The notes under the pieces are model-generated. The model was not told the origin of the DNA. It saw only the letters and a program-made list of their open reading frames with translations, and did not search any database. From Umbilicaria muhlenbergii (lineage: Eukaryota > Ascomycota > Lecanoromycetes > Umbilicariales > Umbilicariaceae), in assembly GCA_000611775.1 (NCBI GenBank), contig KK106983.1, forward strand, positions 1,692,820 to 1,756,819: DNA of 64,000 nt. Direction: 5' to 3'. The position numbers and the translations under genes are program-made. This document shows positions 13,111 to 38,608 of the stretch, one piece after another. Within the stretch, counting starts at the first letter, position 1; each line of letters begins with the position of its first letter.

Positions 13111-13583
13111 CACTCCAAAGCATGCTCGTTTTGAAGGTGTCGGCGGACGGTTCAGGCTCTTTCAAAATGTTCTCAACTCGAATGGTCGCTCGCAAGAGCG
13201 CCGAGGATGCAAGACTTATCCGGTCTTGATAACCCGGTCATGCAGGAGCTGGTAAATGTGTAATAGTCATTGAGCGGGCCATAGTCCGTCTAGGAAATCA
13301 TTGAAGTAGTATAGATGCCATCACAAAGTAAACAAACACAACGATCTCCATTATTAGCAGTATTTGATATAGTTTCACCACGAAGGAGATAAGTAGAAAG
13401 AAGTTCAGCGACAGTATAGTTATCAGAGTGAGATATAAATCCTGCAAAAAAGAGAACAGAGAGGAAAGAGCTCCAGCAACAGCATAAAAATAAGAAGTAA
13501 TATGTATATGATTCCCGCTGGGGAAAATAAGAAAGATGGATGCGGACGGCGTATGAGAGGTTTACGTAGGCCTGAATGATACC

Positions 13584-13653
13584 CTGCTTCACAGCCTGTA
13601 GTATTGTGAAGCAGATTTCGCCACTGCCTGTATTGTTGTGAAGCAGGCTTCAC
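13584..13653. repeat. Clustered inverted repeats of TGTGAAGCAG
   Basis: CTGCTTCACA (13584-13593) faces TGTGAAGCAG (13605-13614), an exact 10-bp hairpin stem with an 11-nt loop. A further TGTGAAGCAG (13637-13646) runs into a palindrome, GTGAAGCAGGCTTCAC (13638-13653). This resembles the end of a small mobile element or a relic, but no element boundaries or target duplications could be defined. Confidence 0.55.
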
Positions 13654-13773
13654 CCCTATGGCCAGTGGAATTGTGCCTAGAAACTGCGAGAGGGTCTTTG
13701 GGTTACTTGTTAGCTTTAGAACATATACTTTTTTAGAACATTTAGTTCCTTCATCAAACAGGCCTACTGGCCC

Positions 13774-13821
13774 GTAAGTTTATCCTCATCCCTCTCGTGT
13801 TTCGTTCTAACAGTTCATCAG
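13774..13821 (+). other. GT-AG intron-like insertion in the D-arm of tRNA-Arg
   Basis: 48 nt beginning GTAAGTTT, with TTCTAAC ten bases before the terminal CAG: the 5' splice site, branch site and 3' splice site expected of a fungal spliceosomal intron. It sits between tRNA positions 13 and 14. Its length fits the short introns of this window. Confidence 0.75.
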
Positions 13822-13860
13822 AATGGCAAGGCGCTTGACTACGAATCAAGAGATTGCAGG

Positions 13861-13916
13861 GTAATAAAGTGCAGTCCGAGCAGTTTGGCTAAGAAGTTAA
13901 GCTTACAGTACTGTAG
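13861..13916 (+). other. GT-AG intron-like insertion in the T-arm of tRNA-Arg
   Basis: 56 nt beginning GTAATA and ending CTGTAG, between positions 53 and 54, exactly at the T-stem/loop border. Branch candidates are CTTAC (12 nt from the 3' end) or GCTAAG. The donor is weaker than that of the first insertion. It shares no obvious sequence with the first insertion beyond splice signals. Confidence 0.7.
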
Positions 13917-13939
13917 TTCGATCCCTGCGTAGGTCATCC

Positions 13940-13945
13940 TTTTTT
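13940..13945 (+). terminator. RNA polymerase III terminator of tRNA-Arg
   Basis: Six consecutive T residues four bases after the tRNA 3' end, the usual pol III stop signal. Confidence 0.75.
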
Positions 13946-14140
13946 GGAGTAGTGGAGGCCTGGCAAAAACCTCTCAGCCCTACATTATCGGTAAATTGGT
14001 CTGCGGCGAAACTAGCGGCGGGAGCGCGCCAGCGACGCGACTTTCTGTCTTCTCAGAAGAACCTCAACTTGAGCCTCACTGTTTCTATCTACTAGATCTT
14101 TCGCGATTCTCTTCTTTTGCTCGGCAGTTCCTCACTCAAC

Positions 14141-16075
14141 ATGGAGACTTTCGAGAACATCTACCTGGACTTATCAAAGCAGCCGGGCAAATGCAGGATA
14201 GCGGAAAGCGGTCTTGGCTGGAAGCCATCTGGGGGTGGGGATACCTTCACACTTGACAGCAGCAACATTGGGGCCGCACACTGGAGTCGCGCAGCTAGGG
14301 GCTATGAGCTAAAGATACTGTCGAGGACGTCAGGTGTGGTTCAGCTCGATGGCTTTGAGCAGGAAGTGAGGGAGTCTATCGTTATATATCCTTGAGGCCG
14401 AGCTGACTTTCGCAGGACTTTGATCGCGTCAGCAAGGGCTTCAAGCTTTGGTATGGCCTCACTCTTGAAAACAAGGAGCACGCACTGCGGGGGTGGAATT
14501 GGGGCAAGGGCGAATTCGGCAAGGCAGAGCTTGCTTTCAATGTCCAAAACAGACCCGCCTTCGAGATCCCGTACTCAGAAATTTCAAATACCAACTTGGC
14601 TGGGAAGAACGAGGTGGCGGTTGAATTTTCATTACCGGCAGGCGGTAGTGAGACCGGAACAAATGGACACCTTGGAGGTGCCCGAGGTCGGGGGCGCAAG
14701 GCAGGTGCTGCGAGAGACCAGCTGGTTGAGATGCGCTTCTACATACCCGGTACGGCGACAAAGAAGGTCAAAGACGAGGAGGGCGATGAAAAGAGCGCGG
14801 ATGGAGAAGAAGAGGAGGAGCAAAATGCTGCGAATCTGTTCTACGATACTTTAATGGAGAAGGCAGAGATTGGAGAGGTCGCGGGAGATACGTTTGCCAC
14901 GTTCCTGGATGTGCTGCATCTTACGCCAAGGTTAGTGACTTGACTATTGGCTGATGGACCCGAATCACTGATGTATGTGCAGAGGCCGTTTCGATGTCGA
15001 CATGTACGAGAGCTCCTTTCGACTGCGCGGCAAGACTTACGATTACAAGATCCAATACGAGGCTATCAAGAAATTTATGCTTCTTCCGAAACCCGACGAT
15101 CTCCATACTCTCATTACTATTGGCCTCGATCCACCACTTCGTCAAGGACAGACCAGATACCCTTTCCTCGTCATGCAATTCAAACGCGATGAGGAGGTGA
15201 TAATAGACCTCAATATGACTGAGTACGTCCAATCTACCTCTCCATGGTCCGGCAGATTGCTAATCGACTAAAAGGGAGCTGCTGGAGGAGAAATACAAGG
15301 GGAAACTGCTACCACACTATGAGCAACCGCAGCACTCTGTAGTTGCCCAAGTATTCCGAGGATTGGCAGGCAAGAAGGTTGTAACACCATCAAAGGACTT
15401 TGTCAGCCACCATCAGCAATCTGGGGTCAAATGCAGCATCAAAGCCAACGAAGGGCATCTGTTCTGCTTGGACAAGAGCTTCATGTTCGTTCCCAAGCCA
15501 GCTACATACATTTCCTTCGACAACATCTCAGTCATCGCCATGTCACGCGTTGGTGGAGCCGTATCCGCAAGTCGAACATTTGACATTACGATTACACTCA
15601 AAGGCGGTACTGGTGAACATCAATTCAGCAACATCAACCGGTAAGTACTGTCTTTCTTCACAAAACTAATCAGTTTGAAATAAATAGAACTAATTTGGCG
15701 CTCCTATATAGTGAGGAACAACAACCTCTCGAAGAGTTCTTCAAAACCAAAGGTCTCAAGACCCGCAATGAAATGCTCGACGACTCCAACGCCATCCTTG
15801 CCGCTGCCCTCAAAGACGAGGACATGGCCTCCTCGGAAGAAGAAGTTGTCGCTGCCCGCGCTGACCGAGGCTCCGCCGACGAAGACGAAGAGAGCGTTGA
15901 TGAGGACTTCCAGGCCGATTCGGAAAGCGATGTTGCGGAAGAATACGATTCTGCGCACGAGAGTAGCGGAGGTGAGGATGAGGATATGGCAGATGCGGAT
16001 GGTGGAGCGGATGGGGCCGAGTCAGATCCTCCAGAGGAGGAGAGACCGAAGAAGAAGGCTAAGACTGCGAAGTGA
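14141..16075 (+). CDS. pob3: FACT complex subunit Pob3 (SSRP1 homologue)
   Basis: Five exons: 14141-14365, 14416-14930, 14983-15222, 15275-15640 and 15712-16075, giving 569 residues. The start METFENIYLDLSKQPGKC is the typical Pob3 N-terminal dimerisation domain. Next come the PH-like domains (NNLAGK-type segment ISNTNLAGKNEVAVEF; later FLVMQFKRDEE and ITLKGGTGEHQFSNINRE), then an acidic tail rich in Asp/Glu and a basic end PKKKAKTAK. As in other fungi there is no HMG box; that function is a separate Nhp6 protein. Pob3 pairs with Spt16 to handle H2A-H2B during transcription and replication. A Gly/Arg-rich insert (GGARGRGRKAGA) sits in the middle domain. All introns have consensus ends. Confidence 0.96.
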
Positions 16076-22415: not shown

Positions 22416-24635
22416 ATGCCTGGCGAGACTTTCGAGTTCCAGGCTGAGATTTCTCAGCTCCTATCCCTCATCATCAACACAGTCTACTCGAACAAGGAGA
22501 TCTTTCTACGAGAACTTATCTCCAACTCCTCGGACGCTCTAGACAAGATCCGCTATGAGGCTCTTTCGGATCCAAGCAAGCTGGACTCCGGCAAAGACCT
22601 CCGAATCGACATCATCCCAGACAAGGAAAACAAGACTCTTACCATCCGTGACACCGGTATTGGCATGACCAAAGCCGTGAGTACATCTCTTACACCTCAC
22701 CTCTGGTTGCGATAGACTAATTTTCTCAGGATCTTGTCAATAACCTCGGCACCATTGCACGCTCAGGCACCAAGCAGTTTATGGAGGCTCTCACTGCCGG
22801 TGCTGACATCTCCATGATTGGCCAATTCGGCGTCGGTTTCTATTCCGCATACCTTGTTGCCGACAAGGTCACTGTTGTCTCAAAACACAACGATGACGAG
22901 CAATATATCTGGGAGTCGAGCGCCGGCGGTACCTTTACGCTCGAACAAGATGAATCTGGTGAGCAGCTTGGCCGCGGTACTAAGATGATTCTCCACCTCA
23001 AGGACGAGCAGACCGACTACCTAAATGAGAGCAAGATCAAGGAGGTTGTCAAGAAGCACTCCGAGTTCATCTCTTACCCCATCTACCTACACGTCCTTAA
23101 GGAGACCGAGAAGGAGGTCCCCGATGAAGATGCCGAAGAGTCGAAGGAAGAGGACGAGGAGAAGAAGGCCAAGATCGAGGAAGTCGATGACGAAGAGGAG
23201 GAGAAGAAAGAGAAGAAGACCAAGAAGGTCAAGGAGAGCAAGATCGAAGAGGAAGAGCTCAACAAGACCAAGCCCATCTGGACGAGGAACCCCTCCGACA
23301 TTACAGCTGAGGAGTATGGTGCATTCTACAAATCACTGTCAAAGTAAGTTCCCCTCATTCGTCATTGCCCGGTGGAGCCTTTGCTAACGCCTATCTAGTG
23401 ACTGGGAAGATCACTTGGCCGTCAAGCATTTCTCTGTCGAGGGTCAACTCGAATTCCGCGCCATCCTCTTCGTGCCCAAGCGCGCACCCTTCGATCTTTT
23501 CGAGACTAAGAAGACCAAGAACAACATCAAGCTCTACGTTCGCCGTGTCTTCATCACTGACGATGCTACCGACCTCATTCCTGAGTGGCTAAGCTTCGTC
23601 AAGGGTGTCGTCGACTCGGAGGATCTACCTCTCAATCTGTCTCGTGAGACTCTCCAGCAAAACAAGATCATGAAGGTCATCAAGAAGAACATCGTGAAGA
23701 AGACCCTCGAGCTCTTCAATGAGATCGCCGAGGACCGTGAGCAATTCGACAAGTTCTACACTGCCTTCAGCAAGAACATCAAGCTTGGAATCCACGAAGA
23801 CTCCCAAAATCGTCAAGCTCTTGCCAAGCTTCTCCGGTTCAACTCGACCAAATCTGGCGATGAGACCACGTCCCTCACCGACTACATTACCCGTATGCCA
23901 GAAGTCCAGAAGAACATGTACTACATTACCGGCGAGTCTCTTAAAGCCGTGCAGAAGTCGCCATTCCTTGACTCGCTCAAGGAGAAGGGCTTCGAGGTTC
24001 TCTTCTTGGTTGACCCCATCGACGAGTATGCCATGACTCAGCTCAAGGAGTTTGACGGCAAGAAGTTGGTCGACATCACCAAGGACTTCGAACTCGAGGA
24101 GACCGAAGAGGAGAAGAAGCAGCGCGAGGCTGAGGAGAAGGAGTACGAGGGACTGGCCAAGGCCTTGAAGAATGTGCTCGGTGATAAGGTAGAGAAGGTC
24201 GTTGTCAGCCACAAGTTGGTTGGCGCCCCCTGTGCCATCCGTACCGGCCAGTTCGGTTGGTCCGCCAACATGGAGCGTATTATGAAGGCCCAGGCTCTCC
24301 GTGACACCTCCATGAGCTCGTACATGTCATCGAAGAAGACGTTCGAGATCTCGCCCAAGTCACCGATCATCAAGGAGTTGAAGAAGAAGGTTGAGGCTGA
24401 CGGCGAGAACGACCGTACTGTCAAATCGATCACACAGCTCTTGTTCGAGACATCCCTGCTTGTGTCAGGTTTCACCATCGACGAGCCAGCCGGCTTCGCT
24501 GAGCGCATCCACAAGTTGGTGTCGTTGGGCTTGAACGTTGATGAGGAAGCGGAGACTAGCGAGGAGAAGGCTGAGGAGGAGTCGGTAGCCGCGGCCGAGA
24601 CGACTGGTGAGAGTGCTATGGAGGAGGTTGATTAG
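22416..24635 (+). CDS. hsp90: Cytosolic heat shock protein 90
   Basis: Three exons (22416-22676, 22730-23343, 23399-24635) give 703 residues. The N-terminal GHKL ATPase is complete: [54 protein letters not shown] and [17 protein letters not shown]. The charged Lys/Glu linker, middle domain (SRETLQQNK with the catalytic-loop Arg/Gln) and C-terminal dimerisation domain follow, ending in MEEVD, the TPR co-chaperone docking motif that marks the cytosolic form. It folds kinases, steroid-receptor-type and other clients with Sti1, Aha1 and Sba1. Length is typical. It lies 686 bp downstream of the septin-like gene on the same strand; its own promoter has heat-shock element candidates. Confidence 0.98.
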
Positions 24636-31307: not shown

Positions 31308-31379
31308 TGCTCGTAGCCTGAATCGAACAGGCGTCGTCCCCGCCACAAGGGGATATACTAACCACTATACTATACGAGC
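31308..31379 (-). tRNA. trnH-GTG: tRNA-His(GTG)
   Basis: 72 nt with all arms: acceptor GCTCGTA/TACGAGC, anticodon stem TCCCC/GGGGA with loop TTGTGGC (anticodon GTG), T-arm GCCTG-TTCGATT-CAGGC, discriminator A. No intron. The D-arm TAGTATAGTGGTTAGTAT is like that of yeast tRNA-His. Confidence 0.95.
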
Positions 31380-37205: not shown

Positions 37206-38608
37206 CTACTGATTCACCCTCCCTTTCTTCTTCTTCCCTAACCCCAACCCCCCCCCAATCCCCATGCCCTTCCTCATGCCCCCTTTCCCCACACCGCCCC
37301 CAACGCCTCCAACGCCCCCGAGAGTATTAAACGCCATGGTGCGGGGCGTGACGGGGCTTTTCATGCCGCCGCTCGTGCCGGGCGTGGTGGGTAGGGCGAG
37401 CATTTCCCATTTCTGGTCGTGGGAGGAGGAGGAGGAGGAGGATTCGGGGTCGGAGAGGGCGAGGCGGTGGGCGCGGGTGGGGTGGAGGGAGAGGAGGGAG
37501 AAGATGGTGTGCAGGAGGAAGAGGGTGCTGTGGGTGTGTGGTGTTAGCGGGGTTGATTGCCGTGGGGGCAAAGAGAAGGTCGGGCTGGGAAGAGGAGGAG
37601 GAGGAGGAGGAGGAGGAGGAGGACTGTCTCTTATACACNNNNNNNNNNNNNNNNNNNNNNNNNNNNNNNNNNNNNNNNNNNNNNNNNNNNNNNNNNNNNN
37701 NNNNNNNNNNNNNNNNNNNNNNNNNNNNNNNNNNNNNNNNNNNNNNNNNNNNNNNNNNNNNNNNNNNNNNNNNNNNNNNNNNNNNNNNNNNNNNNNNNNN
37801 NNNNNNNNNNNNNNNNNNNNNNNNNNNNNNNNNNNNNNNNNNNNNNNNNNNNNNNNNNNNNNNNNGAGGAGGAGGAGGAGGAGGAGGAGGAGGAGGAGGA
37901 GGGAACGGGGTGGGGAGGAAGGGGAAAAGTGAGAGGGGAGGAAGGGGGGGAAGGACATACCACAAGCAAACCGTGACGGCAAAAGCCCCCTTCGCTTGCT
38001 GGCAATACCCATGCACCCGCTCGCTCACGGGCGGGCCGCAGCTCTTCGTGATGTACCACGGCGCGCCGGGCTGCGGGTGCGCCGGGTCGCTCATGTCGGG
38101 GGCGGCCTGCGCGTGGATGCTGACGGCGTAGAGGGCGGTGAGGGCGGCGTGCACGACGAAGCTCAGCAGGGGCAGCCAGCAGTCGCAGATGAACATGACG
38201 ACTTTGACGATCGAGACGAACATGGAGAGCACGGAGATGACGACGTTGAAATCGGTGACGCTGGGGTTTCGGGATGGGACCCGGGTCAGTCGAGGGGGGT
38301 ATTTGGGGATTGGGGGTCGGGAGGAAACGAAAGTGAGGAGGGGCTTACAATGCACTCCACGGCAGGGGCGTGTGCACCGGTCGGTAGTTGGCGTAGGCGT
38401 ACAGGATCTCGTTCGGGTTGCTGTTCCAGCCGTGGTTGGCGCCTTCTTGCCACAGCAGCGTGCGGTACAGATCCGGCGCCGCGATGCCGAACAGGGCCAG
38501 CGCGGCGACGGTGAAGGGCACTTCGATGACGAAGAAGGCCGAGAGGGTTTTCGGGTGTCGCCATTCTCGCGGGATGGCCGCGAGCCAGGCGGGGATTCTC
38601 ACTCTCAT
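37206..38608 (-). CDS. Four-TM membrane protein, conserved-looking fungal family
   Basis: Three exons (38608-38349, 38260-37961, 37527-37206) give 293 residues. The start MRVRIPAWLAAIPREWRHPK leads into TM1 (FFVIEVPFTVAALALFGIAA). A segment YRTLLWQEGANHGWNSNP and PNEILYAYANYRPVHTPLPW follows, then TM2 (VISVLSMFVSIVKVVMFICD), TM3 (SFVVHAALTALYAVSIHAQA), the motif DMSDPAHPQPGAPWYITKSC and TM4 split by intron 2. The tail has PGTSGGMKSPVTPRTMAFNT and a Gly/Lys-rich end. Four TMs suggest a MARVEL-like topology; function unknown. Intron 2 contains the second assembly gap, so its length is uncertain, though both splice sites (GTATGT, CACCCACAG) lie in real sequence. Confidence 0.82.
37624..37638 (+). 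other. Nextera/Tn5 transposase-end adapter left in assembly
   Basis: CTGTCTCTTATACAC is the 5' part of the Tn5 mosaic-end sequence used in Nextera libraries. It directly abuts the N run and follows a GGA repeat. This is library artefact, not fungal DNA. Confidence 0.95.
37639..37865. other. Assembly gap (227 N) inside an intron
   Basis: N run flanked on both sides by GGA repeats and on the left by adapter sequence. It lies in intron 2 of the four-TM gene. Confidence 0.95.

Follow-up and report, generated by a model that had tools for sequence, protein, structure and literature searches.

A tRNA-Arg(ACG) gene split by two insertions with features of spliceosomal introns in a filamentous ascomycete

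A 64-kb stretch of fungal DNA, the whole of which was analysed and is called the window here, carries a tRNA-Arg(ACG) gene that is split by two intron-like insertions (Table 1). When both are excised, the three exons join into a 72-nt tRNA-Arg(ACG) that is accepted by ARAGORN and called tRNA-Arg(acg); the split tRNA, with the exact coordinates and product proposed for it in the first-pass annotation of this DNA, is confirmed as a real observation. Intron 1 is strongly supported and intron 2 moderately supported as a spliceosomal-type intron. The locus is probably a live gene that has been invaded twice by U2-type introns and whose precursor, probably a Pol III transcript, would be processed to the tRNA by the spliceosome; transcription, splicing, and function of the gene are the most likely reading of its sequence. 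Spliceosomal introns in structural RNA genes are already known, and the tRNA as host appears to be new.

Results

The insertions divide the gene within the D arm and the T arm, leaving the anticodon arm and variable loop together in the central exon (Table 1). In the joined tRNA, 20 of the 21 stem pairs are formed (acceptor, 7/7; D, 3/4; anticodon, 5/5; T, 5/5), and all invariant bases in our cloverleaf descriptor are present. The initial claim that all stems pair thus holds for the acceptor, anticodon, and T stems, while the D-stem has a C-A mismatch at 13-22. The boundary of intron 2 can be moved by 1 base (GG..TA) without any change in the joined product. In the unspliced window, both ARAGORN and Rfam at gathering scores list an intact tRNA-His at 31308-31379 as the sole tRNA, and Rfam with permissive settings found no tRNA at 13500-14100; the prediction that standard finders would miss the gene was correct for these two programs, to which it is limited here. 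In the description of tRNAscan-SE 2.0, noncanonical introns are searched for in candidates found with the archaeal model (PMC8450103, excerpt).

Table 1 Features of the split tRNA-Arg(ACG) locus (upstream distances are counted from the tRNA 5' end)
Feature	Coordinates	Strand	Description
TATA-like ATATAC	13723..13728	+	-38 to -33
TCATCAA, possible Pol III initiator	13751..13757	+	-10 to -4; the tRNA-His gene has the same word at -12
Exon 1	13761..13773	+	Acceptor 5' strand and D-stem 5' strand (positions 1-13); first half of A box
Intron 1	13774..13821	+	48 nt, at 13/14; GTAAGT...TTCTAAC (likely branch A 13810)...CAG
Exon 2	13822..13860	+	D-loop, D-stem 3' strand, anticodon arm (ACG), variable loop, T-stem 5' strand
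Intron 2	13861..13916	+	56 nt, at 53/54; GTAATA...CTTAC (likely branch A 13905)...TAG
B box in unspliced DNA, AGTTCGATCCC	13915..13925	+	Full consensus 8/9, core 7/7; consensus from general knowledge
Exon 3	13917..13936	+	T-loop, T-stem 3' strand, acceptor 3' strand, discriminator A
T6 run, likely Pol III terminator	13940..13945	+	3 bases after the tRNA
POB3 (FACT subunit), first coding exon	14141..14365	+	ATG 204 bases downstream of the tRNA

To compare the joined tRNA with chance, pairs of GT..AG excisions, each of 42-100 nt, were enumerated and scored with a strict cloverleaf descriptor that was built from general tRNA invariants after the sequence had been seen. Among the 159,232 pairs on the real + strand, the split tRNA-Arg locus ranks best with its 20/21 stem pairs, and the one further descriptor pass on that strand (13 pairs) is an alternative excision at the same locus. 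The maximum was 6 stem pairs among the 182,121 pairs of the real minus strand and 12/21 on 287 shuffled strands, where 42,037,448 pairs gave 451 descriptor passes; on the strength of the shuffled strands, a chance origin of the joined tRNA was rejected. ARAGORN by itself is less decisive and is insufficient to decide against chance. Applied to double excisions, it gave 0 matches in 4 shuffled strands and 6 loci in 116 in a larger run (16,953,016 pairs); on the real strands there were 6 matches, every one at the tRNA-Arg locus, and 3 further ones on the minus strand that lean on the real tRNA-His. Single GT-AG excisions of 42-100 nt gave 1 ARAGORN locus on shuffles, and the 14,142 and 14,691 such excisions on the two real strands yielded no tRNA with a single intron of this kind. 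When the demand for GT and AG was dropped at the tRNA-Arg locus, 10 of 2,504,738 excision quadruples tied at 20/21, corresponding to 5 boundaries for intron 1 times 2 for intron 2, and one of these is GT-AG/GT-AG.

Both insertions have GT..AG ends. As yardsticks we used 12 introns of window genes (50-71 nt), including four from POB3. Ten of the short introns inferred in window genes (50-70 nt) have 7-11 nt after the branch A; these were preselected for a CTRAY site, so that just the branch distance is informative. The likely branch site of the POB3 intron at 15641-15711, placed by eye, is more distant. Intron 1 has a GTAAGT donor, a CTAAC branch site with 11 nt after the branch A, and a CAG acceptor. 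The combination of a GTAAGT donor with a CTRAY site that leaves 7-11 nt after its A occurs in 2 of 14,216 GT..AG segments (overlapping, 42-70 nt, both window strands), namely, intron 1 and the segment 23344-23398, which reading frames indicate to be an intron preceding an Hsp90 exon. Intron 1 is 2 nt shorter than the shortest yardstick intron. It has no stable hairpin (-0.4 kcal/mol; 79/200 shuffles fold as well).

The signals of intron 2 are weaker: its donor is GTAATA, its branch site CTTAC lies in an AGCTTAC context with one mismatch to CTRAY, and its acceptor is TAG. The CTTAC candidate (A 13905) has 11 nt after the A, the same distance as in intron 1; the other candidate, CTAAG (A 13892, 24 nt after), also has one mismatch. 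The GT..AG ends of intron 2 hold by choosing one of its two equivalent boundaries. The original description of two spliceosomal-type introns therefore stands firmly for intron 1 and with less strength for intron 2, whose donor is weak and whose branch site is imperfect. The length of intron 2 falls inside the yardstick range, and it forms a hairpin of -14.1 kcal/mol (11/200 shuffles as good). A perfect 12-nt palindrome, TACAGTACTGTA, lies close to its end (13904-13915); a 10-nt palindrome of different sequence is described for Hypoxylaceae sister introns (PMC8469720, excerpt).

In mean local similarity to the 12 window introns, 29 of 1,500 controls equaled or exceeded intron 1 and 15 of 1,500 did so for intron 2, and in best single similarity the introns were not outstanding (284/1,500 and 125/1,500 controls equal or better). 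The word CCTCAT occurs in intron 1 and in 3 of the 12 window introns (at 23344, 29195, and 18218) versus 14 of 1,500 control GT..AG segments, the word having been picked post hoc. An in-register comparison of 12 bases on either side of the junctions revealed no target-site duplications flanking the introns, and both insertions are seamless in the sense used for fungal introner-like elements. Bulge-helix-bulge (BHB) motifs, strict or relaxed, full or half, were absent at both junctions and at the shifted boundary of intron 2, and BHB introns were rejected; in a calibration of this test with 5,000 random pairs, 3.7% passed the relaxed full form and 18.3% the relaxed half form. The annotation had suggested looking for the two insertion sequences elsewhere; a match search within the window found no sibling copies there, the best other matches being 15 nt with one mismatch for intron 1 and, its own palindrome aside, 10 nt for intron 2. 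Nor was close similarity found between introns 1 and 2, and the idea that they are close relatives of each other was rejected.

The internal promoter of the gene is partly preserved, with the A box cut by intron 1 and the B-box core kept. The terminal AG of intron 2 supplies the bases that make the B-box core complete before splicing (Table 1); a B-box score of at least 8/9 is expected 0.02 times per 225 positions. Upstream of the gene, the A/T content from -45 to -28 is 15/18, compared with 13/18 at the tRNA-His gene, and at least 13 is reached by 2.7% of the 18-mers in the window. The word TCATCAA has 18 occurrences on both window strands, 2 of which directly precede the window's two tRNA genes; in the single assembly with fungal contigs, which gave 31 tRNA matches, it was upstream of 0 of the 8 tRNA genes examined, and these may include nonfungal ones. 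The T6 run reported after the tRNA is present just beyond exon 3 (Table 1).

Two other candidate signs of Pol III transcription were discarded. There is no T4 run inside 13761-13936, which is uninformative, as 69.8% of 9,023 windows of 176 nt also lack T4. At 13886 in intron 2, a word scores 7/8 as an A box, which is also the score of the A boxes in the joined gene and in tRNA-His; it was rejected as a substitute A box, with 0.71 such words expected per 225 positions and its position being 125 bases into the gene.

The DNA upstream of the split tRNA contains tandem duplications of 32 nt (13590-13653, 81% identical) and 16 nt (13715-13747, 88%), the TATA-like element sitting in the first copy of the latter, as well as a 15-nt inverted repeat (87%) at 13566-13580 and 13753-13767, the right arm of which overlaps the tRNA 5' end.

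Both introns are positioned at the 5' edge of a loop. In folding calculations on the unspliced RNA, a complete cloverleaf from which the two introns loop out is 3.2 kcal/mol above the optimum. In a test devised after the positions had been seen, 1,157 placements of both introns were sampled, which is about half of the grid and includes the real placement; 14 of them matched or undercut the real cloverleaf energy, and 62 matched or undercut the real cost. The predicted folding gives a hint only that the real placement is favorable for the cloverleaf.

The window comes from the nuclear genome of a filamentous ascomycete (Pezizomycotina). The spliced translation of POB3, the gene that begins downstream of the tRNA, matches the yeast FACT subunit over residues 3-469 of the 471 submitted, and the best match of its first 194 residues is a PDB chain named POB3N, which we take to be from Chaetomium and hence from Pezizomycotina. 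Two N runs (2230-2314 and 37639-37865), presumably assembly gaps, are both >11 kb from the tRNA-Arg locus.

Discussion

In the course of events that we favor, two U2-type introns would have entered the gene by insertion, for example through reverse splicing: the first interrupts the A box between positions 13 and 14, and the second interrupts the B box between positions 53 and 54. Transcription would start near -10 to -4 and stop at the T6 run, yielding a precursor of ~176 nt plus leader and trailer. Pol III is the most likely polymerase because the upstream elements and the terminator are kept and the DNA itself contains an entire B-box core, with Pol II read-through as the alternative. The precursor may fold as a cloverleaf with two looped-out introns, or it may be met unfolded by the spliceosome; since the cloverleaf can form around the introns, end trimming could precede or follow splicing. 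Both introns would be spliced out as lariats in the ordinary way, with ease in the case of intron 1 and less easily in that of intron 2; RNase P, RNase Z, and CCA addition would complete a normal tRNA-Arg. We give roughly an even chance to the fuller proposal that this is a spliceosome-matured cytosolic tRNA whose gene tolerates the interruption of both promoter boxes. Within that reading, the introns would be tolerated because intron 2 keeps the B-box core intact, the upstream elements carry initiation, and the cloverleaf remains foldable around introns at the loop edges. Two separate insertions in a gene whose exons still give a full cloverleaf suggest that it stayed alive after the first insertion, although the intact cloverleaf may simply reflect recent insertions.

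We regard the main rival explanation as possible but doubtful: mobile introns, introner-like or reverse-spliced, would have entered one redundant tRNA-Arg(ACG) gene, and this copy would be silent or its transcript decayed while other copies supply the tRNA. Several tRNA-Arg(ACG) genes are usual in fungi, and the split copy may therefore be dispensable. A dead copy would accord with the cut A box and the weak signals in intron 2, and insertions in eukaryotic D and T arms are described as lying mostly in one of many synonymous genes and as marking supposed pseudogenes (PMC4090602, excerpt). It fits poorly with a joined tRNA that retains its pairs and invariant bases, with the retained B-box core and Pol III-like flanks, and with two intron-like insertions whose boundaries both permit an exact tRNA. 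The same flanks speak to another scenario, in which the tRNA lies inside a Pol II transcript, such as a long POB3 5' leader, and is released as a by-product of ordinary mRNA splicing or never released. POB3 begins a short distance downstream in the same direction, and it is established that spliceosomes normally act on Pol II transcripts; the T6 run directly behind the tRNA and the upstream elements resembling those of tRNA-His point instead to Pol III, and we consider the Pol II scenario improbable.

Eukaryotic nuclear tRNA introns are conventionally assigned to the tRNA endonuclease, and the insertions might be noncanonical introns removed by that enzyme, as in Cyanidioschyzon merolae and nucleomorphs. 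The tRNA genes of these systems likewise have as many as three introns each, found in the D and T loops or arms, together with interrupted A and B boxes, a TATA-like upstream element, and a T-run (PMC3978253 and PMC4090602, excerpts), with C. merolae introns lying in the D, anticodon, and T loops (PMC3978253, excerpt). Both introns of the split tRNA-Arg lie at a 5' loop edge, and 53/54 is among the known archaeal intron positions, while 13/14 is absent from the cited portion of an open-ended list of such positions that closes with "etc." (PMC4090602). However, C. merolae junctions form a BHB for the splicing endonuclease (PMC3978253, excerpt), whereas the split tRNA-Arg has no BHB at either junction and has GT, branch site, and AG instead, with full spliceosomal signals in intron 1; moreover, the yeast enzyme is described as cutting at 37/38 alone (PMC4033280, excerpt). 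The endonuclease route is disfavored, and we regard it as very improbable. For a chance or assembly artifact we found no argument; the N runs are distant, and the shuffled-strand results and the intron signals leave it a very small likelihood.

U6 snRNA genes, which give rise to Pol III transcripts, carry spliceosomal introns in some fungi, and reverse splicing has been proposed as the source of these introns. Fungal structural RNA genes such as ascomycete rDNA and the Rhodotorula U2 snRNA gene are likewise cited as cases of U2-type introns within functional noncoding RNA genes (PMC2586383, excerpt). In contrast to the rDNA, U2, and U6 hosts, the host here is a tRNA gene, and both of its internal promoter boxes are interrupted. 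Capnodiales introner-like elements and Hypoxylaceae sister introns are reported to be seamless, to lack flanking duplications, and to have stable or symmetrical structures (PMC8469720, excerpt). Intron 2 matches these elements in part, and better than intron 1 does. Unlike introner-like elements, the tRNA introns have no sibling copies in the window and intron 1 lacks a stable hairpin, so that the suggested status of the gene as a target of introner-like elements is unproven. In the introner literature, the word "tRNA" has 0 occurrences in the main texts of PMC4457414, PMC8469720, and PMC9860276, and no nuclear tRNA with spliceosomal introns was found among the matches listed in the open-access literature, which does not prove absence.

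If the gene is processed as proposed, a spliceosome-dependent tRNA would link two RNA-processing systems that are considered separate, spliceosomal introns would be able to invade and persist in a gene with internal promoters, and the locus would provide a natural test case for the splicing of a Pol III transcript. Such split tRNA genes may be commoner than known and possibly widespread yet unseen, because common eukaryotic tRNA annotation seems not to search such intron positions. Neither ARAGORN nor Rfam, as run, detects the present gene, and the tRNA gene counts of intron-gaining fungi are perhaps incomplete.

In comparative searches, degenerate tRNA-Arg patterns gave 0 matches in viral_contigs and 0 in genome_contigs, and the DNA flanking the locus gave one plasmid match (37 bases, E 0.5). 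No POB3 relative was present in viral_contigs, and genome_contigs contained one, L001 (NYXK01000009.1, 113,958 bp). ARAGORN, Rfam, and a blastn search with the joined tRNA as query all found no tRNA in L001; an excision scan of this contig gave no descriptor pass (2,473 and 2,532 single and 24,522 and 27,781 double excisions), and a 28-base exon 2 pattern had no match with up to 3 mismatches in the assembly to which it belongs. L001 is titled as a contig of a Deltaproteobacteria metagenome-assembled genome and encodes a fungal-type POB3 relative that is 66% identical in the best segment; it is apparently fungal material that contaminates a bacterial genome in GTDB.
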